Virus record (IMG/VR): IMGVR_UViG_3300044765_000266 | Span: 1-28,327 of that record | Length of the DNA: 28,327 bases | Direction: 5' to 3' (one strand) | Source: a virus | Part shown: positions 9,070-28,327 of the stretch, piece after piece | Layout of the letters: every line of letters begins with the position of its first letter | Numbering within the stretch: position 1 is the first letter of the stretch | Position numbers and translations under genes: made by a program | Notes under the pieces: model-generated | What the model was told of the DNA's origin: nothing | Databases searched by the model: none | The model's input: only the letters and a program-made list of their open reading frames with translations

Positions 9070-9072
9070 GCG

Positions 9073-11826: not shown

Positions 11827-11829
11827 ACG

Positions 11830-11943: not shown

Positions 11944-11951
11944 CACGTCCT

Positions 11952-12275: not shown

Positions 12276-12306
12276 GGTGCGCTCCAAAAGCAAAGGCGTG
12301 AGGGAA

Positions 12307-12328: not shown

Positions 12329-12347
12329 AAGAGAGAAGAAAAGAAAG

Positions 12348-12857
12348 TTAGACGCCGAGCGCGCGGCGCTGATCAGCGAGCCGATCAATGCCGCCGACGT
12401 TAAAGATGAAGTTGAGCGGATCGATCTCGATCAATACTTCACCATTCACGGTGAGCTTGTAATAGGCACAGCTTGTCGTGAACTTGTGCTGGGTGTTGTC
12501 GGCCGGCTTCGCGGTACCAAAATCAATTTCCTTGTGACGACCGCGGACCACCACTTCCACCGCATCCGTGGCGCCGGTGTCATCACGCTGATACGCACCG
12601 GCAAAGCGCAGCAGACAGCCGACAGCGCTGGTGATACCGAATTGCTTCAACGCATCCAGCATGAGGCCACCAGCCGTCCATTCGAGCGTGATGAGCTCGC
12701 CGCCGAGGTCGACTTCCACACCGGTGTCCATGCCACCGCCGCGCCACTCTTCCATCTTGCGGCTGAGCTTGGGCAAGGTGACTTCGGCGATCTGGCCGAG
12801 ATAACTGTTGCCGTTGTTGAAAAGGTTCAAGTTCTTGAGCTTGCGCGGCAGGGCCAT
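12348..12857 (-). CDS. FII: Major tail tube protein
   Basis: A 169-residue homologue of P2 gpFII (172 residues), the protein of the rigid inner tail tube. The start MALPRKLKNLNLFNNG with SYLGQIAEVTLPKL is characteristic, as is the C-terminal INGEVLIEIDPLN-type segment, here VNGEVLIEIDPLNF. It follows the sheath gene after a gap that carries a hairpin, and is expected to be made in large amounts. Confidence 0.96.
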   Translation of the reverse strand: MALPRKLKNLNLFNNGNSYLGQIAEVTLPKLSRKMEEWRGGGMDTGVEVDLGGELITLEWTAGGLMLDALKQFGITSAVGCLLRFAGAYQRDDTGATDAVEVVVRGRHKEIDFGTAKPADNTQHKFTTSCAYYKLTVNGEVLIEIDPLNFIFNVGGIDRLADQRRALGV

Positions 12858-12887
12858 GCGTGGATTCCTTCAAAGGGCAAAGAGCAA

Positions 12888-12907
12888 ACGGCCGGCGTAC
12901 CGGCCGT
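12888..12907 (-). other. Intercistronic hairpin between FI and FII
   Basis: A perfect 8-base GC stem, ACGGCCGG at 12888-12895 and CCGGCCGT at 12900-12907, with the loop CGTA. It fills most of the short gap between sheath and tube genes. On the minus strand it is followed by TTTGCTCTTTG, so it could be an attenuator or an RNA-stabilising end that sets the FI:FII ratio. Confidence 0.55.
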
Positions 12908-12913
12908 CTTGGG

Positions 12914-14092: not shown

Positions 14093-14116
14093 GAAGGTTC
14101 CTCGTGATGGGCGCCG

Positions 14117-14476
14117 TTACGAAGCGGCGCTGAGTTGCAGGGGGACGGTGAGAGAAACGGGTGTCGCGATCGGCGTATCGGTGCGCGTGCCTTCCAGAAT
14201 CAACACGACCTGACCCGGCGCAGCGCCGAGTTCCATCGTCACGCGCGACAACTGCACACGCGGTTCCCAGCGCATCAGCGCTGTGGCAGTAGCGGCGTAG
14301 AGGCGCAATCGCGTGGCGGCGTGAAACGGTTGATCGATCAGATACGGCAACAGCGAGCCGTAGTCGCGACGCATCACGCGCGTGCCATACGGCGTTTCGA
14401 GGATGTCGCTGATGGACTGCTGCAGGTGGGCCAGTCCTTCGATGGCCTTGCCGGTGTAAGCGTCGATACCGCGCAT
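14117..14476 (-). CDS. W: Baseplate protein W (gp25/lysozyme-like family)
   Basis: A 119-residue homologue of P2 gpW (115 residues), of the T4 gp25 group that forms the baseplate wedge. The hallmark ETPYGTRVMRRDYGSLLPYL (residues 27-46) is present, followed by TATALMRWEPRVQLSRV. It begins 2 bases past the V stop. In P2, V and W precede J; here they are followed directly by the sheath gene. Confidence 0.95.
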   Translation of the reverse strand: MRGIDAYTGKAIEGLAHLQQSISDILETPYGTRVMRRDYGSLLPYLIDQPFHAATRLRLYAATATALMRWEPRVQLSRVTMELGAAPGQVVLILEGTRTDTPIATPVSLTVPLQLSAAS

Positions 14477-14478
14477 GG

Positions 14479-15051
14479 TTACGTCGGCTCGCCGGACAGG
14501 TACGCGCCGGGTTGCACACCTTGGGTCTTGTGATGCTGCAGGCTGATGGTACCGGCGACGACGTCATCCTTCGTCTTGATGCCGGCGTCAACGGAGACGT
14601 TTTCGGTGACATGCAAAGCGCCGGTAATGCGCGTGTCGCCGGTGATGTCGACGCCGGCCGGTGCAACGAGAATGACTTTGCCGCCCGAAGGCAGCGCCAC
14701 GCTGACTTCGTGCTTTGCTGGGGCGTAGCTGATCAGCGCCCCATCGGGATATTGCGTGACGTGTGTGGTATCGCCATCGATCGGCGCCGCTGCGCCATCG
14801 GCATGTAGCGCCGGAAGCACCGTGCCGCGCGCGGTATCGCCGCCAGGGCACAGGAGAATGACCTGTTCGCCGACGCTAGGAGCCCACCAAGTGCGCGCAT
14901 CACCCGCGCGATAGGTCAGCCACCGCAGCGGTTTCGTCACCAGCTCGCCGCTACGAACCGTGCAGCGGCGAGCGGCGTGATCGACGGAGGCGACCACGCC
15001 ATAGCGCAGCAGGTTTTGCAGCAGGCGGGAGAGTTCGACGAGCGGGTCCAT
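14479..15051 (-). CDS. V: Baseplate spike protein V
   Basis: A 190-residue homologue of P2 gpV (211 residues), the membrane-piercing central spike. The N-terminal OB-like domain contains RWLTYRAGDARTWWAPSVGE and QVILLCPGGD (about 43-72). The C-terminal beta-helix region (about 115-165) has repeated V/I-rich turns, followed by LQHHKTQGVQPG, whose histidines fit the metal-binding tip seen in such spikes. There is no in-frame start further upstream before a TAG, and no clear Shine-Dalgarno sequence before the ATG at 15051. The inferred late promoter puts transcription start at or very near this ATG, so a leaderless message is possible. Confidence 0.95.
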   Translation of the reverse strand: MDPLVELSRLLQNLLRYGVVASVDHAARRCTVRSGELVTKPLRWLTYRAGDARTWWAPSVGEQVILLCPGGDTARGTVLPALHADGAAAPIDGDTTHVTQYPDGALISYAPAKHEVSVALPSGGKVILVAPAGVDITGDTRITGALHVTENVSVDAGIKTKDDVVAGTISLQHHKTQGVQPGAYLSGEPT

Positions 15052-15057: not shown

Positions 15058-15118
15058 ATGCTGCCGGTGCTATACAGAAGCTGGCGAGCGTATGCGACTG
15101 TGCCGACGCATTGGTACA
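15058..15118 (-). promoter_or_regulatory. Putative Ogr-dependent late promoter for V-W-FI-FII-E-T-U-D
   Basis: The dyad TGTGCC-N8-GGTACA spans 15099-15118. The box GCATGCTGCCG (plus-strand view; CAGCAT on the minus strand) spans 15056-15066, with the hexamer at 15058-15063. The distance from dyad to box equals that at the J promoter. The dyad centre would be about 56 bases upstream of transcription start, in line with the -55 position known for P2 late promoters. The start point falls near the V ATG. Activation by the ogr product is inferred. Confidence 0.6.
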
Positions 15119-15201
15119 TTGTTGCTGTGGCCTTTATGGCGTTGCAGACGCATGCGTCATCCTCTGCAACAGTGTTTATTACCGACTATTACGGAGCGCT
15201 A

Positions 15202-16011
15202 ATGAATTTCTCGCAGAGCACAGGTCCCATGTTTCTTGGCTTCTCCCGAGAAGACGAAAACAAGCTTCTATCCGGCGAGCAACGCATACACCGGATCTTT
15301 CCATTTGATCGGTTTATCGATCTGGTCAGAACCAGAAAGCTTACCTTTGTGAAGCCAAAGCTTTGGAAGGATCCCTACGAAAATCTAATGAATCGTCCAA
15401 TTCAAATGGACGATGGCAGAACTATTCGAGTGCCGCACTACGAGGACGATCTCTTTGCGCAGTGCTGGTCCCTTGAGTACGAATCTGACGCCATGTGGCG
15501 AATATATTCAGGTGACGAGCGCGGAGTTTTGGTATCTGCCAATGCGGCAACGCTCTATAGGACGGCAGAATCCACCTATCCATGGCCCACAGAGCAACTT
15601 TTTCTGGGAAAGGTTGAGTACCTTTCAGAACACGCCTTAAAGCAGAAATTTGAATCGCATGAATTCTTGCGCAGCGTACTGAAGTCAGGCATGTACTCAT
15701 CTGGTGTTGCACAAACGCTTCTGTATAAACGCGATTCCTTCAAGCATGAAGCTGAGGTGAGATGGATCATATCAAGGCACATCTCCAATATTCCGGGAGA
15801 CGTGCATCATTTGCCTATCAATCTCGAGGCATCGATAACAAAAGTGACACTGGACCCTCGCCTATCCGATGAGGATATGGAAAGGCAGATATTCCTTATC
15901 CGAAGCGCGGGTTACAGTGGAGAGGTCGTACAATCGAGTCTTTACGGCATGCCCGAGCTTTCACTCGCCATCCCTAGTTTGGATTGGCTGCATGGGCTTT
16001 CGCCGTCCTGA
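15202..16011 (+). CDS. DUF2971-family cargo protein
   Basis: A 269-residue protein that fits the DUF2971 family: LTFVKPKLWKDPYEN (47-61), AQCWSLEYESDAMWRIYSGD (86-105) followed by RGVLVS, GKVEY (136-140), and YKRDSFKHEAEVRWI (175-189). The family is widespread in mobile elements and near defence genes, but its biochemical role is not established to my knowledge. The ATG at 15202 has GGAG upstream; the frame runs open to 14977 but there it lies antisense to V. It is A+T-richer than the tail genes and points against them, wedged between G and V. This is a classic cargo position, so an anti-phage role is plausible but inferred. Confidence 0.85.
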   Translation: MNFSQSTGPMFLGFSREDENKLLSGEQRIHRIFPFDRFIDLVRTRKLTFVKPKLWKDPYENLMNRPIQMDDGRTIRVPHYEDDLFAQCWSLEYESDAMWRIYSGDERGVLVSANAATLYRTAESTYPWPTEQLFLGKVEYLSEHALKQKFESHEFLRSVLKSGMYSSGVAQTLLYKRDSFKHEAEVRWIISRHISNIPGDVHHLPINLEASITKVTLDPRLSDEDMERQIFLIRSAGYSGEVVQSSLYGMPELSLAIPSLDWLHGLSPS

Positions 16012-16032
16012 GCACAGTAGCCTACTCCCTTG

Positions 16033-16620
16033 CTATTCGTTGATGGCTGCGTCCGGGTAATCAGGTTGCGTGCCCCAGGACTCGGCGGCTGTATTCCATG
16101 TCACGCGGATGTGCTCCCCAGTTGGAGGCTGTAGTGTTGTCAAAGTATCTGGCAACGCAACACCCGCTGGCAGTGGTGCAGCACGCTGTGCCGTGGCTTT
16201 GACCCACAGCGGGCAACGACTGTAGTCCGGTACTGCAATCCAGGCATTTGTCTCGATGTCCCATATGGAACACTTACAGTCCTGCGCGTCATACGTAGGC
16301 GGTGCGAGATGCGTCACACTCACCGGCAGCGCTTCGCCAAGCGTGAGTGTGTTGGGCACCGGACGTGCGGTCGCTTTGTCCCACAACATGATGTAACGAA
16401 AATCGTCGACCACTTCCCACGCGCTGCCATCTTGCGTGAGTCGACGCGCTTTCTGCGGCCCCGGATCAGCGCCAGGCTGGACAAAGACCGCGTTGCTTGG
16501 CAGCGGATAGATGCTTTCTAACGGAGACAGATACGCCTCCAGCTCGCCTAGGTATTCGCGCGTCTTGGTACAGAACGTGAAGGCTCGTTTCGTCGGCGGC
16601 AGATTCTTCGTGTCAGGCAT
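16033..16620 (-). CDS. G: Probable tail fibre assembly protein (gpG position)
   Basis: A 195-residue protein directly after the tail fibre gene, where P2-like phages encode the fibre chaperone gpG (175 residues in P2). Sequence support is weaker than for its neighbours: there are tryptophan-containing repeats of the kind seen in fibre chaperones (AWEVVDDFRYIMLWDKATARP and IETNAWIAVPDYSRCPLW are similar in layout), and a C-terminal WNTAAESWGTQPDYPDAA. The start at 16620 (MPDTKN) lies 13 bases past the fibre stop; the open frame extends over the fibre gene. It ends 21 bases from the convergent DUF2971 gene. Confidence 0.7.
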   Translation of the reverse strand: MPDTKNLPPTKRAFTFCTKTREYLGELEAYLSPLESIYPLPSNAVFVQPGADPGPQKARRLTQDGSAWEVVDDFRYIMLWDKATARPVPNTLTLGEALPVSVTHLAPPTYDAQDCKCSIWDIETNAWIAVPDYSRCPLWVKATAQRAAPLPAGVALPDTLTTLQPPTGEHIRVTWNTAAESWGTQPDYPDAAINE

Positions 16621-16633
16621 AGGTGCGTGCTCT

Positions 16634-18229
16634 TCAATAGGCGATGCAATGAAGCAGGTAGGTACCGGCCGGCAAGTTGTCGCTTCCGCCGGCTGCGGCC
16701 ACGGTAAGCGTGTGCGTGTGGCCACCTGCACCACCCACGGTCGCTGTATGGTTGTGGTCGCCGACGGCTGCGATAGAAATCGTGTGCGAGTGGTTGCCGG
16801 AACCATTCATGCCGATGTTGTGGCCGTGATTACCTTGCCAGTCGGTGGAGAAGTTGTGCGCGTGGTTGCCCGCGTCGTTCGTCTGGCGCTGCATGTTGCG
16901 AAACGCGGGACCACCGCCGCCGACATAGCTGGAGCCGGAGCCATCGCCGAACAGACTGTTAAGCGTCATGTGCGAGTGCTGGCCTTGCGCGTCGGTGGAG
17001 CCGCTATGCGCGTGATTGCCTTGGCCATCGGTCCACGCCGAGTGTGTGTGATCGCCTTTAGCGTCGGAACTGGCAGCATGCGCATGCGACCCCGCGTTGG
17101 TCAGCGTGACGCTGTGCGCGTGATCGGCAACCGCTGCCGCAGTGGCTGCATGGGTGTGCGACAGGAGGGCGCCCGCGTCATAGGTGCCGACCTTCGCCGC
17201 TTTGGTCGTCACGCGGACGGACGTGCCTTCCCGTAAGTTCGGAATGTTGAACGTGTTGGTGCCATCACCGGCGCCGTACGTCGTGCCGATCGCCGCAAAC
17301 AGCGCCGCGTACTGTGAGCGAGAAATCGCCGAGCCATCGCACACCAGCGTGCTGGGTGGCGGCGTCGATGCCGCGGTCACGATGATCTGACCGGGATAAT
17401 ACCGGGAGGCCACGTCCAGCTTGGTGGCAAGCGCTGCCGCCAGACCGAGGATGTCGGCCATTGCATGCTGATGCAGTGCGGGTGGAAACGTTGCCGGCAC
17501 ACCGGTCAGATTGTTCCACGCCCGATAGAACGCACCTTCTTGGCCATCCAGCAGATCCGCATCCAGCCCGTTGTTCGCACCGGCGTCCTTGAGCGCAGCA
17601 CTCTTGAGACCGAGACCCGCGCGAAACGTGATCGCATCCACCGCTGCCAGGAGTGCTTTGACGAACTTGGTGGGCGCATTCGCACCTAACCGATCATCCA
17701 AGCCCGCCTTCAGCGTGGATGGCGTGATCGCGAGCGAGCTATCCGATGCGGTGATTGCGTCATTGGAGGTCGCCAACTGCACGACACCGGCCACCGCCGT
17801 AGTGGCCTTGTTGAGCTGGAAATTGGTGTCGCCAAACACCATGCTCGCGGCGTTGATGTCCGCAAACCGCGTGTCCACGGCCAACAACAGTGTGGCCTGC
17901 GTGGATTTCTCCGCAAGCACGCCGGCTTGCCCATAGACACCGAACAGCGTGCCGTCCTGCAGATACAGCCCGATCCCGCGAACGGTGTACGTGTCGGCGC
18001 TGTTGTCGCGAATCGTGACGTGCACGGTATCCGCGGCCGTCGCGCCGCCGCTCAGGGTGGTGAGCCGCTTGGATTCGCCCGGAAGCTTGGTGAGTGACGG
18101 ATCGGGGGTGAACGTCGCTGCCGTCACCCCCACCGACGCCACCAGCACGGCATTGGTACCGTCGTGTTTGGCATTGACCAACGCGGCACGGCCGGCCGTC
18201 GTGACGGTCAGGGTCAAGGCTTGCGGCAT
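16634..18229 (-). CDS. H: Tail fibre protein with collar domain and HxH-repeat tip
   Basis: A 531-residue receptor-binding fibre. Residues 1-160 match the P2 gpH-type N-terminal attachment domain (ADTVHVTIRDNSADTYTVRG, GIGLYLQDGTLFGVYGQ). An ALHQHAMADILGL link is at about 251-263, and a phage tail collar domain at about 277-340 (YYPGQIIV, then CDGSAISRSQYAALFAAIGT, FNIPNLR). The C-terminal part carries eleven His-x-His motifs, nearly all exactly 12 residues apart (first His at 358, 370, 382, 394, 406, 418, then 456, 468, 480, 492, 504). In T4 gp37 such HxH motifs bind iron along a needle-shaped trimer. The start at 18229 lies one base past the I stop. Confidence 0.92.
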   Translation of the reverse strand: MPQALTLTVTTAGRAALVNAKHDGTNAVLVASVGVTAATFTPDPSLTKLPGESKRLTTLSGGATAADTVHVTIRDNSADTYTVRGIGLYLQDGTLFGVYGQAGVLAEKSTQATLLLAVDTRFADINAASMVFGDTNFQLNKATTAVAGVVQLATSNDAITASDSSLAITPSTLKAGLDDRLGANAPTKFVKALLAAVDAITFRAGLGLKSAALKDAGANNGLDADLLDGQEGAFYRAWNNLTGVPATFPPALHQHAMADILGLAAALATKLDVASRYYPGQIIVTAASTPPPSTLVCDGSAISRSQYAALFAAIGTTYGAGDGTNTFNIPNLREGTSVRVTTKAAKVGTYDAGALLSHTHAATAAAVADHAHSVTLTNAGSHAHAASSDAKGDHTHSAWTDGQGNHAHSGSTDAQGQHSHMTLNSLFGDGSGSSYVGGGGPAFRNMQRQTNDAGNHAHNFSTDWQGNHGHNIGMNGSGNHSHTISIAAVGDHNHTATVGGAGGHTHTLTVAAAGGSDNLPAGTYLLHCIAY

Positions 18230-18230
18230 A

Positions 18231-18785
18231 TCAGTTTTCCTCAGCAAGCGCGATCAGATCTAGGCGCGCGAAAAGACAGGGGCGTGCGATGGCAGCGATA
18301 CCGGTCGCCGCATAGAGGTTCACGCCTTGCGTAAAGGTGAAGTGCGAACGCACCGGTTTCGTGCGTGTCACTTCGGCGATGACGTCGTCGACATACTGCG
18401 CGGTCGCTTCGGTGCCATCGGCACCCGACAACGTCATCGACAGCTCAAAGGTGTGGGGCTCGCCTTTCGGCTCCTTCTGCCACCACTCCGTGATCTCCAC
18501 CGCACCGCCAAAGCTCTCGACGACATCGCTGACACTCTTGGCCGTACCCTTGTGCTTTTGAATCTCGAACGCACTGGCGATGCGCGCACGCTTGATGTGT
18601 TCGGGCCAATCGCTGCGCCACGTGTCGAGCGACAGCGCCCAAGCCAACCAGGGAAGCAGTTCAAGGGGACAGGTCTTCGGATTCCACAGATCCCGAATCG
18701 GGACCGGCACGTCTCCGATGCGTGCTATGGCCGCTTCGAGCGCGCGCTCGACGGGTTTGGCGTTGGGCGGCAGAAGACTATTCAT
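18231..18785 (-). CDS. I: Baseplate/tail protein I
   Basis: A 184-residue homologue of P2 gpI (176 residues), part of the baseplate wedge. It shows VPIRDLWNPKTCPLELLPWL followed by AWALSLDTW, then KRARIASAFEIQKHKGTAKS and EITEWW. Two starts are possible: 18785 (MNSLL), which overlaps the J stop by 8 bases, or 18797 (MAAT). I chose 18785 on length and the GGCGG at about 9 bases. It precedes the fibre gene by one base. Confidence 0.93.
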   Translation of the reverse strand: MNSLLPPNAKPVERALEAAIARIGDVPVPIRDLWNPKTCPLELLPWLAWALSLDTWRSDWPEHIKRARIASAFEIQKHKGTAKSVSDVVESFGGAVEITEWWQKEPKGEPHTFELSMTLSGADGTEATAQYVDDVIAEVTRTKPVRSHFTFTQGVNLYAATGIAAIARPCLFARLDLIALAEEN

Positions 18786-19668
18786 CGTTGCCGCCATACC
18801 GAAGATCGATGGCCGTGCAATACGCCGCTTGCGTTCGGCTGATCACGATGCGATCGGTCGGTGAGTCCAGATCGACGCGCTGCATGCCCGGTACGTGGAT
18901 GGCCGCATCGAGCCCGCTGCGCGTGATGTCGCGTCCGAGCTTGTGCGTATCGACGACGAACTTGGCGAGGTTCCGGTTCGAGTTATCCAGCACGACGGCG
19001 CTGTCGGGACCGGCAAGTGTGTAGCGCGTACCGGTGATCTGATAGGGGATGATCTCGGCGCTCTGCACGATGACTTCATCAGTCAGCGGACGCACCTTGA
19101 CCGAGGACAAGGCGGCCGCCACCGCATTGAGTGTCGCCTGCGGTGCGGTACCGTCGCCCGTGCGAGATAACACCGTCACCAGCACTTGCCCCGGCGACGG
19201 GCTGGTCGCGCTGGCATCCAGCACATCCGGGCTCGCACTGAGGGCGTGGAAGATGTACGCGCCTTCCGGCCCGGCGACGGAGAAACCTTCCGGTGAGAGA
19301 CGGATGCGACGCAGATAGTCCTCGTCGCTTTCCATGACTTTCGGAATGCCGCGCGATGGATCGCCCGCATCCAACGTCAGGCGCTCGACGTTGTAGAACG
19401 CGCCAAGATTGTCGAGGTCCGTGCCGCAGGCATACGGCAGCATGACGGCTTTGGCGCCATCGTTGACGCGCTGGCGCAACAGCATTTCTCGGTAGGCCGC
19501 GACCTGCAGCACTTTGTACGACGGATCGGATTCCGTGAGTGCCGTGAACGTGTCGTCGCGCACACGCAGATCCGCGAGCATGTCCGCAAAAATCTGCTCG
19601 AACGAAATCGCCTCCACCACGGCAGGCGCTGGGAGCTGCGACAGATCGACGGCGGTCAGGCCGGACAT
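18778..19668 (-). CDS. J: Baseplate assembly protein J
   Basis: A 296-residue homologue of P2 gpJ (302 residues), the gp6-like baseplate wedge protein. Support: DLSQLPAPAVVEAISFEQIF near the start, ALTESDPSYKVLQVAAYREM followed by LLRQRVNDGAKAVML, then ESDEDYLRRIRLSPEGFSVA. The start at 19668 is chosen because the family begins there; the open frame to 19749 would pass over the promoter dyad. It is the first gene of the J-I-H-G run and has its own late promoter, a job done in P2 by the promoter of V. Confidence 0.95.
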   Translation of the reverse strand: MSGLTAVDLSQLPAPAVVEAISFEQIFADMLADLRVRDDTFTALTESDPSYKVLQVAAYREMLLRQRVNDGAKAVMLPYACGTDLDNLGAFYNVERLTLDAGDPSRGIPKVMESDEDYLRRIRLSPEGFSVAGPEGAYIFHALSASPDVLDASATSPSPGQVLVTVLSRTGDGTAPQATLNAVAAALSSVKVRPLTDEVIVQSAEIIPYQITGTRYTLAGPDSAVVLDNSNRNLAKFVVDTHKLGRDITRSGLDAAIHVPGMQRVDLDSPTDRIVISRTQAAYCTAIDLRYGGNDE

Positions 19669-19700
19669 GCGTAACGGGCGAAGAGCGAAGGCATGCCCGC

Positions 19701-19761
19701 ATGCTGCCGACGGGGAGCAGGGTGGCGCGAGCGCAGCGCGATGTACCACCTGTTTGGTACA
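19701..19761 (-). promoter_or_regulatory. Putative Ogr-dependent late promoter for J-I-H-G
   Basis: The dyad TGTACC-N8-GGTACA spans 19742-19761, with 7-base arms TGTACCA and TGGTACA. The box GCATGCTGCCG lies at 19699-19709, hexamer 19701-19706. Both elements are 36 bases apart, exactly as before V. Transcription would begin near 19694, about 26 bases before J. The 19762-19915 remainder of this gap shows only weak GTGGT/ACCAC symmetry and no gene. Confidence 0.65.
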
Positions 19762-19915
19762 GACAAATCACTCTGTCTTAAGTGGTTTCACGCAAGGCAC
19801 CACTACGTTTCAACGCAGAGCAATTAGCGTTGTGCGGGAACGCGCTTTATGGCAAAACAATTCCGTTTCCGTAGCGGATAATCACGTGCCAGGTCAACAC
19901 GGGCATATTGAATCC

Positions 19916-20590
19916 TTAAAGGCCCGCAGTTTGCACATAAGTTGCAGCAACCTTTCCGATCCCTGTAATCACGTAACCAGGTTCTGTAGGACCCATGAGC
20001 TGCATTTGACGAACCATGTTGAGTGACTCCAGCACTTCAAGTTCTTGATCGAGAGCCATCGTCCCCTCCCAAAACTGAGGAACCGCCTTGATGGCCGTCA
20101 CGATGTCACCAATCCAGATGCCGCTAGCGGTTTGCTGTAGGCCAATAAGCTCAAGTTTTTTCTCTGTCGCGGGCAGTTTAGCGATGATTGACAGAAGGCG
20201 AAGTTGCACTTGAGAGAGCCGCGCCAGATGTTCGAGAATCGAAAGTTTCTTCGGATCGCCTGAGTGTTTGGTACTACCACACGCACCTACAATTTTTCCC
20301 ATCGCTTCGACTTTTTTGGGATCGGGTTCGTACGAAACCTTATCTGCCATAAGCCTAAACGCAGCCAGCGCCTCTTCGCTGTCGAACCACGACTTATCTA
20401 CGGTGGATTCTTTCACCGATTTGAGCTGCTCTGAAAGCGCATCAATCGCTGCTTGAAGGTTCTTTGCTCGAATGGCATCTGCTTTGTCAAAAAGCAAATG
20501 ATCAAGAGCGCCTCCTGCGACAGGAATGCTTGCAACTGCTGCCCGAATCCAAGCAACGCCCTCTGGAACATAGCTTGTGATATTGGCCAT
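19916..20590 (-). CDS. Putative cargo (moron) protein, undescribed helical family, copy B
   Basis: A 224-residue protein between S and J, the place of V and W in P2. It is A+T-richer than its neighbours. Layout: an N-terminal hydrophobic Gly/Pro segment RAAVASIPVAGGALDHLLFD (16-35); a charged helical region, with QAAIDALSEQLKSVKES and ILEHLARLSQVQLRLLSII (118-136); and a C-terminal part like a winged helix ending GYVITGIGKVAATYV. This order matches the gene at 6846-7538, although identity is low. No enzyme motif is visible. It has AGG at about 7 bases before the ATG and a 123-base leader with an inverted repeat. Conversion or defence function is inferred from position only. Confidence 0.78.
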   Translation of the reverse strand: MANITSYVPEGVAWIRAAVASIPVAGGALDHLLFDKADAIRAKNLQAAIDALSEQLKSVKESTVDKSWFDSEEALAAFRLMADKVSYEPDPKKVEAMGKIVGACGSTKHSGDPKKLSILEHLARLSQVQLRLLSIIAKLPATEKKLELIGLQQTASGIWIGDIVTAIKAVPQFWEGTMALDQELEVLESLNMVRQMQLMGPTEPGYVITGIGKVAATYVQTAGL

Positions 20591-20607
20591 TGAATGCCTA
20601 AGCCTGG

Positions 20608-20722
20608 GTTGGTTAGCTGCGGAAACTAATACGCTCGAATCCTAAGCGAAATAGCGGTTGAAGACTATGCGGTAGCGAACTCGTTGGCTGTGATGTCCTG
20701 AATCACCCCCGAGCTAACCAAC
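20608..20722. repeat. 11-base inverted repeat between S and cargo gene B
   Basis: GTTGGTTAGCT at 20608-20618 and AGCTAACCAAC at 20712-20722 are exact inverted copies separated by 93 bases. The right copy includes the stop codon of S. The repeat could form the foot of a long RNA hairpin or mark the edge of the inserted cargo DNA. Minus-strand bases between the copies include a short frame reading VIQDITANEFATA before a stop, which may be a gene remnant. Confidence 0.5.
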
Positions 20723-21172
20723 GAAATGTTCTATTAGTAACTGCCTTATCTGTTCTCGGTCCTTCACGTTAAAACCGAGCAGCTCGCGGCGTGCATAACG
20801 TACCCGCGGTCCGTTTGACGCGACGCGGTCCGTAAGTCCGTACTGGTGCACGCGTGCAATGCGTGCGGCCCGGCCCTTGAATGCCACGATCGCCGCTTCG
20901 GGGGTGGCTTGGGTCTTCAGATGTTTGGCCGTCCGCAATTTCGCAAACATCTTGCCCCGCTTGATGCGCCCTGTCTTGTCGCGCAGCCTCTTTACCTTGC
21001 GTGGTACATAGGGTGTGCCGTCGGGATTGCGCTGATCGGCGATGCGCTGCTGCTGGCTTCGTCGTAAGACGATCGCCACCGACTGCGCGATGCGGCGACG
21101 CCCTACAGGGCCGATGGCCAGCAGCAACCCATCCACCCAATCTTCGAGCAGCGTCAGATTCGCATCGCTCAT
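20714..21172 (-). CDS. S: Tail completion protein S
   Basis: A 152-residue homologue of P2 gpS (150 residues), of the phage virion morphogenesis family, needed to finish the tail. The family pattern RRRIAQSVAIVLRRSQQQRI, NPDGTPYVPRK, ARIARVHQYGLTDRV and YARRELLGF is clear. The start at 21172 overlaps the R stop as ATGA. It is the last gene of the run that begins at O. Confidence 0.95.
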   Translation of the reverse strand: MSDANLTLLEDWVDGLLLAIGPVGRRRIAQSVAIVLRRSQQQRIADQRNPDGTPYVPRKVKRLRDKTGRIKRGKMFAKLRTAKHLKTQATPEAAIVAFKGRAARIARVHQYGLTDRVASNGPRVRYARRELLGFNVKDREQIRQLLIEHFVG

Positions 21173-21648
21173 GCGGGCTGATCCCACTCCGCAACCAGCG
21201 CATCACGCAAAAACAGCCGCCAGTGCTTCGCTGTCAGCCGTGGCTGGGGCAACGGTTCGTCGACATGGACAATATCGAGGCGCCCGCCGTCACTCTCGGC
21301 CACAATCACGCGCTCGGTTAGCTTCAGCGTGAGGCTAAGATCGCACGCGTCGTGACTGATGATGTCCGCTTCGAAGGTGATGCCGTCGGGGCGCAGATCC
21401 ACGTTGTCGAGCAGCTCCGGCTGATTATCCCGCACCCACATCAGCAGCGGCACCATCACGGTATCCGGATCGCCGGCATAGTCGATCAGGGTCACGTTGA
21501 GCGTGTAGCTGTACTCGAACGACATCCCCGGTACGTAGGTCGCGATCACCGAACCTTTATCGACGAAGACCAATAAGCTCTCAGGATTGCGTGCGAGATC
21601 CGGCAGTGCGACGGTCAGTGCTTGGCGCAAACTGGCAGGCTTCTTCAT
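21169..21648 (-). CDS. R: Tail completion protein R
   Basis: A 159-residue homologue of P2 gpR (155 residues). It opens MKKPASLRQALTVALPDLAR and contains LLMWVRDNQPELL and LSLTLKLTERVIV, typical of the family. The start overlaps the inner-spanin stop as ATGA at 21645-21648, and the stop overlaps S. Confidence 0.94.
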   Translation of the reverse strand: MKKPASLRQALTVALPDLARNPESLLVFVDKGSVIATYVPGMSFEYSYTLNVTLIDYAGDPDTVMVPLLMWVRDNQPELLDNVDLRPDGITFEADIISHDACDLSLTLKLTERVIVAESDGGRLDIVHVDEPLPQPRLTAKHWRLFLRDALVAEWDQPA

Positions 21649-22130
21649 GGCGTCGCCTGGTTGGCCCGCACCCACGCTTGCAGCGCCTTCAATTGTTCGA
21701 CGGCTGCGTGGCAGGTGGCGTAGTTGTCGACGACGGTGCCGGCGACGGCAGAGAGTGCAAGGCCGCTGGGCTGCGCATCAGCAGCGTCGGCGGGACCGGG
21801 CAGGTCATTCGAGGCGGCCGCGTCGTGCACGCGCACAAAACCGACAGGCACGGAGCAAGCAGCATCCGCTTGAGCAGTGACATAGACAGGAATCTCCTTG
21901 GTGAGCGTGGCGCCACGTTCGTGCACGACGCGCACCTGATCGACGTAGCGTGTCACGATGTGTTCACTGGCCTGGGCGGCGGCAACCTGGCCAGTCAACT
22001 CGCGCTGCGCAGTGATGGCAGTGTCGGCACGTGCTTCAGCGAGCGCGATGCGTTGCCGCGTAACAACGTGATAGAGCCACAGGGCACCGAGCAGGCCGGC
22101 ACCGAGCAGCACCTGGCGCAGCAGCGTCAT
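21645..22130 (-). CDS. Rz-like inner-membrane spanin subunit (LysB type)
   Basis: A 161-residue protein with an N-terminal membrane anchor (LLRQVLLGAGLLGALWLYHV, 3-22) followed by a helical periplasmic domain (RIALAEARADTAITAQRELT), as in inner spanins. It would join the outer lipoprotein encoded inside the same DNA to fuse the two membranes at the end of lysis. Its start overlaps the endolysin stop as ATGA. Order endolysin-LysB-LysC-R-S follows P2. Confidence 0.85.
   Translation of the reverse strand: MTLLRQVLLGAGLLGALWLYHVVTRQRIALAEARADTAITAQRELTGQVAAAQASEHIVTRYVDQVRVVHERGATLTKEIPVYVTAQADAACSVPVGFVRVHDAAASNDLPGPADAADAQPSGLALSAVAGTVVDNYATCHAAVEQLKALQAWVRANQATP
21689..21883 (-). CDS. Rz1-like outer-membrane spanin lipoprotein nested in Rz (LysC type)
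   Basis: A 64-residue frame lying wholly inside the inner-spanin gene in another frame. It starts MSLLKRMLLAPCLSVLCACT: a positive start, a hydrophobic signal and a lipobox-like LCAC, with the second Cys of the pair as the likely lipid-bearing residue. The mature part is short and proline-rich (RPPRMTCPVPP and later SPAPSS, TTTPPATQ), as usual for Rz1. Nesting of this kind is seen in lambda Rz/Rz1 and in P2 lysB/lysC. The lipobox has Cys at -2, which is slightly unusual. Confidence 0.78.
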   Translation of the reverse strand: MSLLKRMLLAPCLSVLCACTTRPPRMTCPVPPTLLMRSPAALHSLPSPAPSSTTTPPATQPSNN

Positions 22131-22942
22131 GCCACCTCCGAAACGGACGGCCGCGCGGCGACATGGCGTGCGTACGCCTTGGCAAGCTTCGCGTCATAGA
22201 GATTGTCGGCATACGCGGGACCGTTGTAGCTCCGCGCGAACGCGGCCCACTTGTGATTGCGCAGCGCTTTCAGCAGCTCCGCATCGGCCTCAACGAATCG
22301 CACGAACGCCTGCAGCTGTTCGCCTTCGCTATTGGCGAAGGCGGCAGCCATCTGCGTGGCGTTGGTGTAACCGAGCGCCTTGGCATGGTGGCCCATGATC
22401 TGAAAACGCCCCCAACTGCACGCCTCCATGGCCGGCTCGTGCGCGATGGCAGCAGCTTGCGCCAGGCGCGCGTATTCGGCGACACCGCCGATATAGCCAC
22501 CACGCGCTTGGCTCAAAATCGAAACCGGTGCCTGCACCATTGCCGGATCGATGCCCTGCGCCTGCAACTGCCGCCAGAACACATGCCGCTCGAACAGGAT
22601 CACCACTCGCCCATCCAGAAGGTAACCGGTACGGGGGCTTTCCACTTCGACCACGGCGTTGATCGCGGCGCTCTCGCAACCGAGTTCTGCAGCTGCGCGC
22701 TCGATATCCGCTTGGGCCAGCGCGCGAGGATCGACGGTGCCGATCAAAGCACTTTGCGTGCGCGGGCCGGCGATGCCATCTTCGACCAGGTGGTGGCTGC
22801 GCTGGAAGACGCGCACCGCCGCTTCCGTGGTCGGGCCATACCAGCCGTCGACGACGACGGACTGGCCGGCGCGATGCAATCGCTGCTGCAGCACGGTGAC
22901 ATCTGCGCCGTGATCCCCGGCACGCAACGTATTAGTCATCAT
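22127..22942 (-). CDS. Endolysin: peptidoglycan-binding domain plus N-acetylmuramidase (DUF3380)
   Basis: A 271-residue modular lysin. Residues about 6-66 are a PG_binding_1 domain (LRAGDHGADVTVLQQRLHRA, VDGWYGPTTEAAVRVFQ, EDGIAGPRTQSAL). Residues about 85-265 match the muramidase family DUF3380: AAINAVVEVES with the likely catalytic Glu, GYLLDGRVVILFERHVFW, and MEACSWGRFQIMGHH. It has no signal peptide, so it should need the holin to reach the wall. P2 gpK is a different lysozyme without a binding domain. The start is an ATG-ATG pair (22942/22939) overlapping the holin-like gene's stop region. Confidence 0.93.
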   Translation of the reverse strand: MMTNTLRAGDHGADVTVLQQRLHRAGQSVVVDGWYGPTTEAAVRVFQRSHHLVEDGIAGPRTQSALIGTVDPRALAQADIERAAAELGCESAAINAVVEVESPRTGYLLDGRVVILFERHVFWRQLQAQGIDPAMVQAPVSILSQARGGYIGGVAEYARLAQAAAIAHEPAMEACSWGRFQIMGHHAKALGYTNATQMAAAFANSEGEQLQAFVRFVEADAELLKALRNHKWAAFARSYNGPAYADNLYDAKLAKAYARHVAARPSVSEVA

Positions 22943-23216
22943 GGTTCGTCCGAAGAATGGCCGCGACATTGCCCTGCGCGGTAAGGCTCAGCACGCACAG
23001 CACGAGCGACACGCCGAGATCGCCGAGATGAATCGGCGTGTTCGCGTAGAGACCGAGCGTCACGCCCAGCGCGGTACTGCCGGTGCTGACGATCAGCACC
23101 CACGCACAGACGCTGACCGCGAGGCGATAGCGCGCACCGGCGCGTCGATACAGAAGCAGGCGCGCGCACGTGATGGCATTCGTGACGAAGAGGAGCACGG
23201 CGAAGAGGTGTTCCAT
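22932..23216 (-). CDS. Small membrane protein, second holin or antiholin
   Basis: A 94-residue, three-segment membrane protein. Hydrophobic stretches lie at about 3-22, 33-53 and 66-86, with Arg-rich YRRAGARYR between the first two and a polar C-terminus. It lies between the class of holin at 23216 and the endolysin and overlaps both neighbours' ends (TGATG upstream). Its family name is not certain; the place and topology fit a holin or a holin antagonist. Confidence 0.75.
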   Translation of the reverse strand: MEHLFAVLLFVTNAITCARLLLYRRAGARYRLAVSVCAWVLIVSTGSTALGVTLGLYANTPIHLGDLGVSLVLCVLSLTAQGNVAAILRTNHDD

Positions 23217-23566
23217 CAGAAACCTCCCCGACGCAGCCAGGTGGTGAGGTCGATGGTCTTGATCCGTTCCAGCACCTGGACGGTGACCGCGATGGCGAAC
23301 GCGGCCGCGAGAAAGGCCGCCACACCCGTGGCCTGCACACCGATGCGCGTCGCCACTTCCGGCGCCGCGAGGTAGCCAATAATCCAACTGATGAGGAGAT
23401 AGATGCCCCGCGAGGTCATCGACACATCGCGCGCATGCAGCGCAACCAGTGCCGCGCCGGCAAAGGCACCGACGATGGCGTTGCCATCGATGCCAGGCAC
23501 CAGGGTGGCGAGTCCCACACCGGTAGCGGCGAAGGCGAACGTGGTGGTGGTCGTCGGTTCGGCCAT
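23216..23566 (-). CDS. Phage holin
   Basis: A 116-residue protein with three or more hydrophobic segments: TFAFAATGVGLATLVPGI (9-26) plus GNAIVGAFAGAALVAL, GIYLLISWIIGYLAAP (54-69), and TGVAAFLAAAFAIAVTVQVL (80-99), then a charged tail. It resembles the putative phage holin group 8 found in P2-like phages. It would form the timing lesion that lets the endolysin reach the wall. It starts 12 bases past gene X. Confidence 0.82.
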   Translation of the reverse strand: MAEPTTTTTFAFAATGVGLATLVPGIDGNAIVGAFAGAALVALHARDVSMTSRGIYLLISWIIGYLAAPEVATRIGVQATGVAAFLAAAFAIAVTVQVLERIKTIDLTTWLRRGGF

Positions 23567-23578
23567 CGGATATCCCTC

Positions 23579-23788
23579 TCAGGTCCAGAGCTGTACCTGC
23601 CCCGTCACGGACTGCGCGGTTTGAGCGGTGTCGGGCAGGTGGACCGGATAGCCCTGCGGCAACACCGGGCCGAGATCGGCGAGGCCGGGATTCGCGACGA
23701 GCGCCGCTTCCGTCACGCTGGCGGTACGCCCCAGCACGCGCTGACATAGCGCATCGAGCGTCTCGCCCTGCAGCGCGCGCACGATCAT
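23579..23788 (-). CDS. X: Tail protein X (LysM-like)
   Basis: A 69-residue homologue of P2 gpX (67 residues). It has the LysM-like pattern VRALQGETLDALCQRVLGRT, then VTEAALVANPGLADLGPVLP and the closing PVHLPDT. The ATG overlaps the L stop as TGATG. Confidence 0.95.
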   Translation of the reverse strand: MIVRALQGETLDALCQRVLGRTASVTEAALVANPGLADLGPVLPQGYPVHLPDTAQTAQSVTGQVQLWT

Positions 23789-24252
23789 CAGAGCAGTTCC
23801 ACCGTGGCGCGCGGACGGCCCAGGATGTCGCGAATCGCATAACGCGCTTGCCGGCGGTAGTCGTCGACGGAAAGCTCCATCGCCTCCGCGCGACGCTGCC
23901 CGGCATCGGTGCTATCGAAGTCGCGATAGCGTTCGATCAATTCGGCTTTCGCGGTCGCATACACGGCACGCTGATAAAGAAGCACGAGACGCGAGGTATC
24001 ACCGATCACCTTGCTCGGCACGTCTGCGAGCGACGCGCGGCCCAGCGCTTCCTGCTGCTGTTGCCACGCATCCAGTTCGTCTTCCACCGCCGACATCGCC
24101 AGCGCGATGCATTCGGTCAGGCGCGCATCGGTGACGGTGCCCCCCAGGCGCAGCACGGCCCGCACGTCGGCCAGCGCGATCGAGGGATACCACGCGCCCG
24201 AACAGATGGCGTGTTGATCGGTGGTGGGGGCGGTAGCGACAAAGCCGGACAT
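23788..24252 (-). CDS. L: Head completion/stabilisation protein L
   Basis: A 154-residue homologue of P2 gpL (169 residues), which closes the head after packaging. Support: WYPSIALADVRAVLRLGGTV near the start, LTECIALAMSAVEDELDAW, and the C-terminal DYRRQARYAIRDILGRPR. The start at 24252 (MSGF) is chosen over the long open extension, which would cross a stable hairpin in the M-L gap. Confidence 0.95.
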   Translation of the reverse strand: MSGFVATAPTTDQHAICSGAWYPSIALADVRAVLRLGGTVTDARLTECIALAMSAVEDELDAWQQQQEALGRASLADVPSKVIGDTSRLVLLYQRAVYATAKAELIERYRDFDSTDAGQRRAEAMELSVDDYRRQARYAIRDILGRPRATVELL

Positions 24253-24272
24253 CGGGATCTCTTCGATAAGAT

Positions 24273-24336
24273 GCGGCGGTGGTCGGTGGGTCCTTCGACG
24301 GGGAGAGAGATCCTCGAAGGCCCACCGAGCCGCCGC
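24273..24336 (-). other. Two-tier hairpin in the M-L gap
   Basis: An inner stem pairs GGTGGG-T-CCTTCGA (24285-24298) with TCGAAGG-CCCACC (24314-24326), 13 pairs with one bulged T, around a 15-base loop. An outer stem pairs GCGGCGG (24273-24279) with CCGCCGC (24330-24336). It occupies most of the 100-base gap, while the neighbouring junctions are tight. It could act as an RNA processing or attenuation element between terminase/capsid and the rest of the operon. Confidence 0.6.
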
Positions 24337-24352
24337 GGCGCTCGGGGCGAGC

Positions 24353-25003
24353 TCAGGTCGCAGCGACAAGCTGCTTCTGCAGCTTGCCGATCTCGGTCTT
24401 GATGCCGAGTCGCGGATTCAGGCGTAAGGCGTGCTGGAGGTGGTCGAGCGCTTGCGTGGGCACGGTGTCGCGCAACGCCAGGCCAATGGCTTTATGGAGC
24501 TTGGCGCGCACTTCATCGGGCATGTCGCACCCGTCGGTGAGCTGGCCGACGCGCAAGAGCTGATCAACGGTGACCGTGGTGCCGGGGTTCTCGCTCTGAT
24601 CGGCGATCTCCTCGACCACCAGCGTGGCGACGTCGCGCTGGTAGTGCTCGGGCAGCTTCAGATCGTGCTTCAGAAGATGTGCGGCCATATCGAGCGCGCT
24701 ATCCAGCGCACCGGTGTCGATGTGCCACACCATCAGCGTGGCGAACACATCGTCCTGTACGGGTTGATCCGCTTCGAGCACGCCGGCAATCCACGCCGCG
24801 TATTCCGGCAGGCGTTGGCGTTTGACGGCGATCTTCTGCTGAATCGACTGGATGCTCTTCAGCACGCGCTTATCTTCGGCGAGCTTGGCTAGCATCAGGT
24901 CGTAGGCGCTGCCGGTGAGCTGCTGTGCACCGGTGCTGGCGGCCAGGCTCGCGGCCTGGGCCGCCAACACACGCTCCCGATGCCGCATGGCGGGGCTGGT
25001 CAT
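24353..25003 (-). CDS. M: Terminase small subunit (gpM, endonuclease subunit)
   Basis: A 216-residue homologue of P2 gpM (247 residues). It begins MTSPAMRHRERVLAAQAA, has a helical DNA-binding N-terminal half, and contains VFATLMVWHIDTGALDSALD and MAAHLLKHDLKLPEHYQRDV, typical of the family. In P2-like phages gpM helps gpP cut at cos. The C-terminus ends in helical GIKTEIGKLQKQLVAA. It starts 12 bases past the N stop. Confidence 0.95.
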   Translation of the reverse strand: MTSPAMRHRERVLAAQAASLAASTGAQQLTGSAYDLMLAKLAEDKRVLKSIQSIQQKIAVKRQRLPEYAAWIAGVLEADQPVQDDVFATLMVWHIDTGALDSALDMAAHLLKHDLKLPEHYQRDVATLVVEEIADQSENPGTTVTVDQLLRVGQLTDGCDMPDEVRAKLHKAIGLALRDTVPTQALDHLQHALRLNPRLGIKTEIGKLQKQLVAAT

Positions 25004-25014
25004 CGTGGCGGTCC

Positions 25015-26025
25015 TCAGTGCTTAAGTTCGATGTTTTCGAACAGCGCCACGGTGCCGTAGTGCTCGACCACGTAGGCATCGTTCGAGGACTCGTAGTTCT
25101 CAATCTGATCGCGCTCTGGCCGATCGCGCAGCAACCGGCGGCGCGCGCCTTCCTGCCAGTAGATGGAGAGGTTGCTGAGCGGCGTCACCAGCACCGCGTT
25201 GTCCGGGAAGCCCGGCACGCGGATGGCCGGCAGACCACCCATCGCTTCGCGGCTGATCAGAATGTCGCTGGCCAGCTCATCGGTCGCACGCTGGTCACGG
25301 TTGAGCTTGGCGAACATCTTGTCGTGCAGGAGCTTGCGACCGCAGATGGCCACGAGATCCGTCGCATCACGGTACGGCTCCTCCAGCAGCATCACCGCGT
25401 CGTACACCAGCGCATCGATGTTGGCGTAGTCGCAGCCGGCAACGGTGCCGACTTGGATCTTGCCCGCGGTCGCGCCTTCCTTCATCCAGTGGCTGGGCGC
25501 CTCGGTGCGGATGTGCTGCAACCAGCCGATGTTCACGTCCTGCAGCAGCGGGTTGGCGGCGCGGTCGGTGTCGGGCGCGACCTTCACGCCATTGAAGCCG
25601 ATCAGGATGCGATCCAGCGCCTGGCGCTTGATGATGGCGTCGCGCAGACGCGTCTGGAAATCGGGAAACTTCGCCCACGCGTCGATCTGCTGGTACTTGA
25701 TCAACGTGTCGAAGTCGGTTTTCTCGCAGCGATAGCCCTGATTCTTGAGGTCGCTGACATCACGCGGCATGCGGTCCTTGGTGCGCGTGTCGGTACGGCC
25801 GGCAATGGTGCCGGTGACACCCAGCATCACTTTCTCGCCTTCCAGTTCCTGTACGCCGATGATGTTGATCTTGCTTAGGAACTCGCTGCTGGCCTGAAGC
25901 TGGTTTTCCAGCGTTTGCTGGACGGTCGGTGTCACGCTGAATTTGCTGGCGGCGCTGTCGACGCCATTGAGCTGGGCCACGCGTTCCGCGTAGGCGTTGA
26001 AGAGGCGGCGGGTGTCGTTGCGCAT
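25015..26025 (-). CDS. N: Major capsid protein precursor
   Basis: A 336-residue homologue of P2 gpN (357 residues), an HK97-fold capsid protein whose N-terminus is trimmed by gpO in P2. Support: TRRLFNAYAERVAQLNGV, then FSVTPTVQQTLENQLQASS, and YQQIDAWAKFPDFQTRLRDA followed by IIKRQALDRILIGFNG, and YVVEHYGTVALFENIE at the end. It follows O after 44 bases. Confidence 0.97.
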   Translation of the reverse strand: MRNDTRRLFNAYAERVAQLNGVDSAASKFSVTPTVQQTLENQLQASSEFLSKINIIGVQELEGEKVMLGVTGTIAGRTDTRTKDRMPRDVSDLKNQGYRCEKTDFDTLIKYQQIDAWAKFPDFQTRLRDAIIKRQALDRILIGFNGVKVAPDTDRAANPLLQDVNIGWLQHIRTEAPSHWMKEGATAGKIQVGTVAGCDYANIDALVYDAVMLLEEPYRDATDLVAICGRKLLHDKMFAKLNRDQRATDELASDILISREAMGGLPAIRVPGFPDNAVLVTPLSNLSIYWQEGARRRLLRDRPERDQIENYESSNDAYVVEHYGTVALFENIELKH

Positions 26026-26069
26026 GAAGGCTCCGTGGCGGGCAAGCGAGTTCGGAAAAGCGGGACGGA

Positions 26070-26927
26070 TCAGCAGTCGGTTTGCAGCACGCCGCTGCCA
26101 CCGGTGGCCGGCGGTCGTGGGGTGAAGGCGGGGGTGGCTTCCAGTTCGGCACGCAGCGTGGCGAACGCGATGCTCGAGTCTTTGCCGGCTTGCTCGATGG
26201 TGTCCAGGCGACGCGTGAAGGCGCTGAGCTGATCGGCGAATTGCTGCGTCGTCGCGGTCGAGTGCGTGGCCAGTTGTTCCAACGCCTCGGTCAGGCCATT
26301 CAATGCATCGCCCAGCTCGGCAAACTGCGCGTCTTGCACCTTGGCTTTGCCAGTGAGCTTGGCCAGGCGCTCTTTGATTGCCGCGAACAAGGTCGTGGTG
26401 GCGTTATCCGCCGGTTCTTCTTCCCACTCGATCTCGATCGCTTCGGCGGCGGTGAAAAGGTTGTCCGGTGATTGCTTGCGACTGGCGAGGGGATTGGCGG
26501 AGGCCTGCGCCGCAAAGGTGAGCATGTCGGTACCGAGGCTCGCCGGGCTGTCGGTGACACCGAGACCCACGAGGTAGGCGCGACCGGTGCTGGCGAATTT
26601 CGGATTGACCTCGATGCTGCTGTAAATCTTCTGCTTGGCCTTGGTCATGCTGACCAGATCGGCCGTGGGTTCGATCTGCGCGAACAAAGCCAGCTTGCCC
26701 TTGAGATCACCGTCGGTGATTTCTTCGGCCTTCACCGCCGTGACATCGCCATACGCCTTGAACGGACCGTCCGGCATCAGGCCACGGATGTGCTCGAGGA
26801 AGATGCGCGCGCCATAGGTTTGCGGGTTGTAGGTCGCGGCGATATCGCTGATCCAGCTGCGCTCCATCGTGCGGCCATCGGTGGTCGCACCTTCAACGGC
26901 AACGCGGAAAAACTTGCTCTTGGCCAT
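26070..26927 (-). CDS. O: Capsid scaffolding protein and protease
   Basis: A 285-residue homologue of P2 gpO (284 residues). The N-terminal half is a serine protease with the catalytic residues in the places known for P2 (D19, H48, S107): here D17 in TTDGR, H46 in LEHIRG and S104 in YSSIEV. The C-terminal half is the helical scaffold (about 190-260) and the tail GGSGVLQTDC is close to P2's. The start at 26927 has GAGGTG at about 8 bases; the longer frame would cross the late promoter. First gene of the long head-lysis-tail run. Confidence 0.97.
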   Translation of the reverse strand: MAKSKFFRVAVEGATTDGRTMERSWISDIAATYNPQTYGARIFLEHIRGLMPDGPFKAYGDVTAVKAEEITDGDLKGKLALFAQIEPTADLVSMTKAKQKIYSSIEVNPKFASTGRAYLVGLGVTDSPASLGTDMLTFAAQASANPLASRKQSPDNLFTAAEAIEIEWEEEPADNATTTLFAAIKERLAKLTGKAKVQDAQFAELGDALNGLTEALEQLATHSTATTQQFADQLSAFTRRLDTIEQAGKDSSIAFATLRAELEATPAFTPRPPATGGSGVLQTDC

Positions 26928-26969
26928 GGGCGACACCTCGTGAACGCAGCGATGTAAAAGGACGAGGCC

Positions 26970-27029
26970 ATCCTCGACACCGCGCGTCACACGAGCAACG
27001 CGATAACGCGGTACCAGTTGCCTGGTACC
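26970..27029. promoter_or_regulatory. Shared late promoter region for O (left) and P (right) with Ogr-type dyad
   Basis: The perfect palindrome GGTACCAG-TTGC-CTGGTACC spans 27010-27029 and has the same GTACC-N8-GGTAC frame as the dyads before V and J. Its centre lies about 92 bases from the O start and about 56 bases from the P start. A possible -10 for O is GAGGAT on the minus strand (26970-26975), 35 bases from the dyad. One activator site serving both directions is an inference consistent with a dyad near -55. Confidence 0.6.
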
Positions 27030-27075
27030 CAGAACAAAGCCATCGATAAGAACGCGCGCGGGCGACGATGCGCGC

Positions 27076-28327
27076 ATGGTGATGCCCGCTCCCGAAGTTG
27101 ATCAGCGACGCTGTGCGCGTGCCTTGTACTGGCAAGGGTGGCGTGTGTCGGACATCGCACAAACGATGGGGATCGCGCGCACCACGGTGGAATCGTGGAA
27201 GACGCGCGATGCATGGGACAAAGCGCCGGTGATCGAGCGCGTCGAGACGTGCATCGAAGCGCGCATGGTGCAGCTGGTTTGCAAGGATCCAAAAACCGGG
27301 AGCGACTACAAGGAAATCGACCTACTCGGTCGCCAGATAGAACGCCTGGCGCGTGTGCGCCGTTTTGAGGCACCCGGCGGGAACGAAGCGGATCTCAATC
27401 CAGCCATCGAAGCACGCAACGCCGGTCCGAAGAAGCAACCCAAGCGCAACACCTTCAGCGAGGAACAGGTCGAGCACCTGCGCAAGACATTCCTCGACTC
27501 GCTGTTCGAGTACCAGCATATCTGGCATCGCGCGGCGGACGAACGCACGCGCATGATCTTGAAGAGCCGCCAGATCGGCGCGACGTGGTACTTCGCGCGC
27601 GAAGCACTCTTTGATGCGATCAGTACGGGTCGCAATCAGATTTTCCTGTCAGCCAGCAAGGCGCAGGCGCACATCTTCAAGCAGTACATCCGCCAGTTCG
27701 CACTGGAGACCTGTGATATCGACCTCAAGGGCGATCCGATCGTCTTATGGAACGGTGCGCACCTGTACTTCCTCGGCCAGAACGCACGCACCGCACAGGG
27801 CTATCACGGCAACTTCTATTACGACGAATTCTTCTGGACGTGCAATTTCGAGGAGATCAACAAGGTCGCCTCCGGCATGGCCATGCACAAGCAGTGGCGC
27901 AAGACCTATTTCTCCACGCCCAGCGCCAAGAGCCATCTCGCGTATCCGTACTGGACCGGGGAGCGCTACAACCGCCGCCGACCGAAAGATCAACGATTAG
28001 ACATCGTCACCACGCATGAAGCGCTGGTGGGCGGCCTGCGCTGCCCGGACAAAGTGTGGCGGCAGATCATCACGATCGAAGATGCCGAGCGTGGTGGCTG
28101 CAGCCTGTTCGATCTGGACGAATTGCGCATCGAGTACACGCCGGACGAATTCGCGAACCTTTTGATGTGCCAGTTCCTGGATGACGGGGACAGCCTCTTT
28201 ACGCTGGCGATGATGCAGGACTGCATGGTCGACAGCTGGGTCGACTGGACGGATCTGCAGCCGCTGGCGATGCGTCCGTTCGGCTATGCGCCGGTGTGGA
28301 TTGGATATGACCCCTCCCTGGGTGAGG
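27076..28327 (+). CDS. P: Terminase large subunit (gpP), 3' end beyond the window
   Basis: The first 417 codons of the packaging motor, out of about 590 in P2. The N-terminal HTH reads LYWQGWRVSDIAQTMGIART followed by TVESWKTRD. The ATPase has the family's Walker A SRQIGATWYFA (164-174) and Walker B with D250-E251 in NFYYDEFFW. The frame is open to the end of the window with no stop; the nuclease domain lies outside. Starts at 27076 and 27082 are both possible; there is no clear Shine-Dalgarno sequence and the inferred transcription start is at about 27075. It diverges from O, as in P2, and Q (portal) is expected next. Confidence 0.95.
   Translation, partial: MVMPAPEVDQRRCARALYWQGWRVSDIAQTMGIARTTVESWKTRDAWDKAPVIERVETCIEARMVQLVCKDPKTGSDYKEIDLLGRQIERLARVRRFEAPGGNEADLNPAIEARNAGPKKQPKRNTFSEEQVEHLRKTFLDSLFEYQHIWHRAADERTRMILKSRQIGATWYFAREALFDAISTGRNQIFLSASKAQAHIFKQYIRQFALETCDIDLKGDPIVLWNGAHLYFLGQNARTAQGYHGNFYYDEFFWTCNFEEINKVASGMAMHKQWRKTYFSTPSAKSHLAYPYWTGERYNRRRPKDQRLDIVTTHEALVGGLRCPDKVWRQIITIEDAERGGCSLFDLDELRIEYTPDEFANLLMCQFLDDGDSLFTLAMMQDCMVDSWVDWTDLQPLAMRPFGYAPVWIGYDPSLGE

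Follow-up and report, generated by a model that had tools for sequence, protein, structure and literature searches.

The late (head, tail and baseplate) genes of this P2-like phage are very probably switched on by its own Ogr/Delta activator, for which three dyads of a shared design in front of the four late operons (P, O, J, V) would serve as binding sites; V and P are predicted to be translated from leaderless messages, and J, somewhat more likely than not, by coupling to a short upstream reading frame. The stretch of DNA analysed here (an IMG/VR contig of 28,327 bases and 60.5% GC, called the window throughout) carries every late gene except P on the minus strand. The order runs from P (+) through O N M L ... 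R S and J I H G to V W FI FII E T U D, with a small inserted gene between S and J and a second insert, on the opposite strand, between G and V. Gene P, encoding the terminase large subunit (27076..28326, +; PF06056/PF03237), is truncated by the contig end. Gene O, the scaffold/protease (26070..26927, -; PF05929), leads the O operon (20714-26927, -; O N M L ... R S); J (Baseplate_J, 18778..19668, -; PF04865) heads a predicted J operon of J I H G (16033-19668, -); and V, the baseplate spike (14479..15051, -; PF04717), begins a predicted operon (V W FI FII E T U D; 7607..15051, -) with the gene order of Smp131. The opposite-strand insert (15202-16011, +), which lies upstream of the V operator and is transcribed away from it, is likely a cargo gene, its product matching DUF2971 (E 5e-6) and, strongly, the PADLOC candidate defence family PDC-S31 (E 4.5e-62). 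Two cargo-like proteins without a Pfam or PADLOC match (19916-20590, -, and 6846-7535, +) are weakly alike in their N-terminal stretches (35% over 51 residues, E 0.009), and one of the pair lies directly upstream of the J operator.

Read in the sense of transcription, the V operator is TGTACC-N8-GGCACA (15099..15118), centred 57.5 bases from the A of the V ATG, and the J operator is a perfect TGTACC-N8-GGTACA (19742..19761). The third operator, GGTACC-N8-GGTACC (27010..27029), is common to P and O and bidirectional, so that three sites give four promoters. The first-pass annotation had placed these dyads correctly and had predicted three late operons from them; the operators before V, J and P/O stand, and the count of promoters is four, with the P/O dyad serving two. 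It had also offered TGTRCC-N8-GGTACA as the common code, of which the core GTACC-N8-GGTAC is found at all three sites (no mismatch at 19743-19760 and 27011-27028, one mismatch at 15100-15117), but not the outer bases, since the TGT...ACA ends are present at V and J and absent at P/O (GGTACC...GGTACC). The ends are not essential to the operator, and GTACC-N8-GGTAC is the common core. The predicted +1 lies 56.5-57.5 bases from the dyad centre at P, O, J and V, which agrees with the earlier placing of the centre near -56 as in P2 (NC_001895), where the activator site is centred 55.5 bases upstream of the annotated V start.

Each operator is followed by a -10-like hexamer. At V and J this is CAGCAT (15058..15063, -, and 19701..19706, -), lying within the box GCATGCTGCCG, whose only exact copies in the window are at 15056-15066 and 19699-19709. 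Both copies end 33 bases from the dyad start, as the first-pass annotation had stated. It had noted the box at V and J; the -10 part of the box recurs, weaker and at equal distance, as GACGAT at P (27064..27069, +) and as GAGGAT at O (26970..26975, -; predicted +1 at 26963, with no ATG there). On the transcribed strand the box reads CGGCAGCATGC, with CAGCAT 6 bases before an ATG, and this hexamer, whose second base is A and whose last two are AT, fits a weak sigma-70 -10. Judged by its letters and placement, the box GCATGCTGCCG is the -10 region together with the start region; a site for a second factor was ruled out, since P and O retain its -10 part alone. The P/O site has a -10 hexamer in both directions, in the window as in relatives. 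Across the window and nine related contigs, a [CG]A[CG][CG]AT hexamer starts 44.5 or 45.5 bases from the dyad centre in all 29 promoter arms, the spacing differing by 1 base between V/J and P/O. In the operator itself, GTACC on the promoter-distal half is invariant (20/20 distinct sites) and the proximal half is slightly looser. Mean dyad symmetry over 63 non-redundant V leaders peaks at 56.5 bases (0.38 against 0.26 +/- 0.026).

We propose that each dyad, with its centre near -57, would be occupied by Ogr, which would bring the host's sigma-70 RNA polymerase to promoters with a weak -10, [CG]A[CG][CG]AT, and no evident -35. All four late operons would thereby be switched on, the divergent P and O from one common site. 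The lineage would have its own operator word, GTACC-N8-GGTAC, with position and spacing kept as in P2. The V and P messages would begin at the A of their start codons, and the J message with a mini-ORF whose stop lies across or next to the start of J.

The prediction of leaderless V and P messages draws on several observations. Among sites found by a search blind to gene content (see below), a gene start falls at the predicted +1 in 10/10 cases for V and 7/7 for P, as it does for both genes in the window, and the O start falls at +34/+36, with no ATG at +1, in 8/8. In the window, O has a 36-nt leader with GAGGTG. Since O shares the operator and the -10 without an ATG at +1, the ATG at V and P would be a feature of translation rather than of the promoter. 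Of 85 V genes drawn from many P2-like phages, 92% have a NANNNT hexamer ending 6-8 nt ahead of the ATG; for W, FI, N, O, I, S, D and U the share is 0-15%. Shine-Dalgarno pairing is weakest at V among nine late genes (mean -2.5 kcal/mol, against -3.4 to -7.7 for the other eight), with 26% of V genes still at or below -5. V and P might instead carry short leaders, with transcription starting a few bases upstream or downstream and the +1 ATG forming part of the promoter. The -10 is weak and degenerate, so that +1 is predicted to about 1-2 bases, and the 1-base difference in spacing noted above leans the same way. We nonetheless consider this alternative unlikely, if worth keeping in mind, given the O promoters, alike in operator and -10, the weak pairing at V, and the P2 record, which annotates 10308, the opening base of V, as the start of the V operon. 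Leaderless V is therefore not new for P2; what is new is the placing of both V and P at the predicted +1 in the window lineage.

The J gene is predicted to be reached differently. In the window a short ORF, MPSLFARYACPA followed by a stop (19656..19694, -), opens at the predicted +1, and its stop codon sits within the J coding sequence, beginning 10 nt downstream of the A in the J ATG. An ATG or GTG stands at the predicted +1 (one base later in L042) in 15/15 of the gene-blind J sites, and opens a mini-ORF of 7-12 codons whose stop falls between 5 bases before and 10 bases after the J ATG, again in 15/15. Stop and J start take the forms ATGA, TGACATG, TGACCATG or a longer overlap; in L040, J itself begins at about +1. 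A mini-ORF opening at the predicted +1 and ending at the J start is a new observation, and a stop that overlaps or abuts the J start suggests that J is translated by coupling. The peptide sequence is not conserved. The case for the mini-ORF is also in part built in, as the L039-type stop belongs to the ATGA at the J start and the window stop falls inside J, and shuffle probabilities are mixed (0.005 to 0.95). Given these mixed tests, leaderless initiation on the mini-ORF followed by re-initiation at J is the likeliest reading, and one we favour somewhat rather than strongly.

The window encodes exactly one Ogr_Delta protein (PF04606, E 1.9e-11), as does each of the TGTACC-code records over 18 kb that were searched. 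Its gene, a zinc-finger activator gene with the pattern CX2CX22CX4C, lies at 5688..6014 (-); the start codon is uncertain, the ATG at 5981 being a further candidate. Modelling from ten sequences gives a small fold (mean pLDDT 64) whose topology appears, with modest confidence, zinc-ribbon-like. A Foldseek search with this model gave no match below E 0.6, and a PDB profile search gave weak zinc-finger matches only and no solved relative. We know of no settled account of how Ogr-type fingers read DNA. The window Ogr is 99% identical to that of a close GTACC user, 56-63% to those of distant ones, and 44% to that of L040. GTACC users and L040 show few finger differences, for example R40 and R55 (window numbering), where L040 has A and Y, respectively.

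Other P2-like phages have different dyads at the matching position before V. L040/G012 carries TTGTGCAG-N6-CTGCACAA, or something near it, at V, J and P/O, with a -10 spacing close to that of the window. Among Dyella-family prophages, G136 has operators of the TGTGTA...CACA type, and G131 and G158 have operators of the TTGTTCT/GTTCT...AGAAC type. All of these resemble the window in promoter position, with V and P mostly at the predicted +1, and differ from it in operator word. In half-site similarity, GTACC users score 0.81-1.0 both within a phage and from one to another, and 0.59-0.61 against L040; the value within G136 is 0.68. A scan for TGT-N12/14-ACA in Smp131, L044 and L045 found clean dyads at all promoters in none of the three. 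The comparison of half-sites indicates one code per phage, demonstrated for the window group and for L040 and weaker for G136, and supports a lineage code that moves together with Ogr.

Such a match within each phage would also be compatible with another phage regulator. A different protein, such as a host or phage helix-turn-helix repressor or activator, could bind the dyads while Ogr acts elsewhere. Many helix-turn-helix dimers use palindromes of 18-20 bp, and GTACC-N8-GGTAC differs from the P2 consensus TGT-N12-ACA. We regard this as improbable: the dyads occupy the position of the P2 activator and are almost confined to the fronts of late operons, L040 has another dyad at all three places together with a diverged Ogr, and no other regulator was seen to track the sites.

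The preferred reading, in which Ogr is the protein bound at the dyads, draws further on their distribution. At up to one mismatch, the core occurs three times in the window against 0.275 expected, each time before a late operon, and 0/200 Markov-1 shuffles held three matches. A scan of the whole window gave no further match at this stringency, and hence none of the many equal matches in coding regions that would have spoken against the earlier proposal. Motif scans of the window and its relatives, the check put forward in the first-pass annotation, gave sites at V, J and P/O with fixed spacing. Whole-record scans at up to two mismatches placed operators at V, J and P/O in G001, G011, G010, G014 and a Dyella acidisoli prophage, and turned up few further matches in the phage records; a scan of genome contigs gave two loci only. 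For the gene-blind search, 2.9 million viral contigs were scanned with a pattern of operator + 35 bases + CASCATG, or operator + 34 bases + SASSATG. This gave 46 distinct sites, 40 of them standing immediately ahead of one of the four genes (V 10, J 15, O 8, P 7), although the relatives are partly close and counts across related phages are not independent events. Replacing 35 bases with 29 in the first pattern left no match in all viral contigs. The other six sites include one cut off at a contig end and very like a P/O site, one that is the back side of a J site, and one that is single. The remaining three are one site shared by L218, L221 and L232, with the pattern match TGTACCGAAGACCCGGTACA; it has none of the four late genes detected downstream and is probably a chance match. 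That the operators as a whole are chance palindromes or remnants of transcription terminators is hardly credible: any GC-rich phage has some 10-base dyads, and a lenient scan of the window at two mismatches gave 10 matches against 5.5 expected, but the excess at up to one mismatch, all of it at operon starts, and conservation across contigs at fixed spacing exclude it. With one Ogr_Delta gene, conserved spacing, the geometry of P2 itself and a search that recovers V, J, O and P without reference to gene content, the earlier proposal of a lineage-specific Ogr-type operator before the late operons is well supported.

A broader reading, to which we give an even chance, is that the late promoters of P2-like phages keep a rigid frame (operator at -57, weak -10, ATG at +1) in which the operator word has repeatedly changed with the Ogr finger, and that in the window lineage three of the four late operons are entered leaderlessly. 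If true, P2-like phages would offer natural cognate pairs of Ogr and operator, and at J a +1 mini-ORF would pass the ribosome on to the gene's own start. Matched sets of finger and operator from related phages make the question of recognition testable by swaps. The fixed spacing could serve as a reliable finder of late operons in uncharacterised P2-like prophages, and as a means of correcting start codons there. Leaderless translation is suggested as a conserved entry to the V operon.

Several annotated phages bear comparison at single genes. In the Smp131 record (L031, about 14928-15007), the annotated V start at 15007 lies inside the gene, downstream of the likely start; the true start is likely ATGGATAGC after CAACAT-N6. 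In phage Dobby (L034), the annotated P start looks wrong: its GTG precedes a CAGCAT -10, and this hexamer is followed 7 nt later by an ATG. In phage 186 (L033, 9609-9728), no late promoter is annotated for the V homologue, orf32; CATTCT stands 7 nt before its ATG and TTGTG farther upstream, possibly a relic or a cryptic late promoter.

By geometry, activator family and operon layout, the window can be assigned to the P2-type late regulons. In P2, the late promoters PP, PO, PV and PF are Ogr-dependent with a published consensus of TGT-N12-ACA, and a single activator site serves pO and pP (NC_001895). The window shares with P2 an Ogr_Delta gene, an operator about 55 bases before +1, one P/O site and a V ATG at +1, as annotated in P2 and predicted in the window; it differs in that J, not FI, heads the extra operon and that V heads the sheath operon. 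It also differs in the operator, GTACC-N8-GGTAC. Because the window misses the P2 consensus (V and J are TGT-N14-ACA, P/O is GGT-N14-ACC), we file it as a new operator variant within P2-type late promoters. The Ralstonia phages phiRSA1 and phiRSY1, with late promoters of TGTTGT-N13-ACAACA (PMC5694545), likewise have a lineage-specific Ogr-type dyad at four late promoters, 50-90 bases before the start codons, with another half-site and spacing. For the Stenotrophomonas phage Smp131, late promoters PP', PO', PJ' and PV' have been proposed, with sites fitted to TGT-N12-ACA (PMC3931495). Smp131 resembles the window in its four late operons, gene order and Ogr homologue, and in a V start at a CAACAT-N6-ATG motif; it differs in its type of Ogr, and GTACC-N8-GGTAC was not seen at its promoters. 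Thus, with Ogr binding and the start sites as we infer them from sequence, the architecture is one known from P2 and Smp131, and the operator code itself is new.
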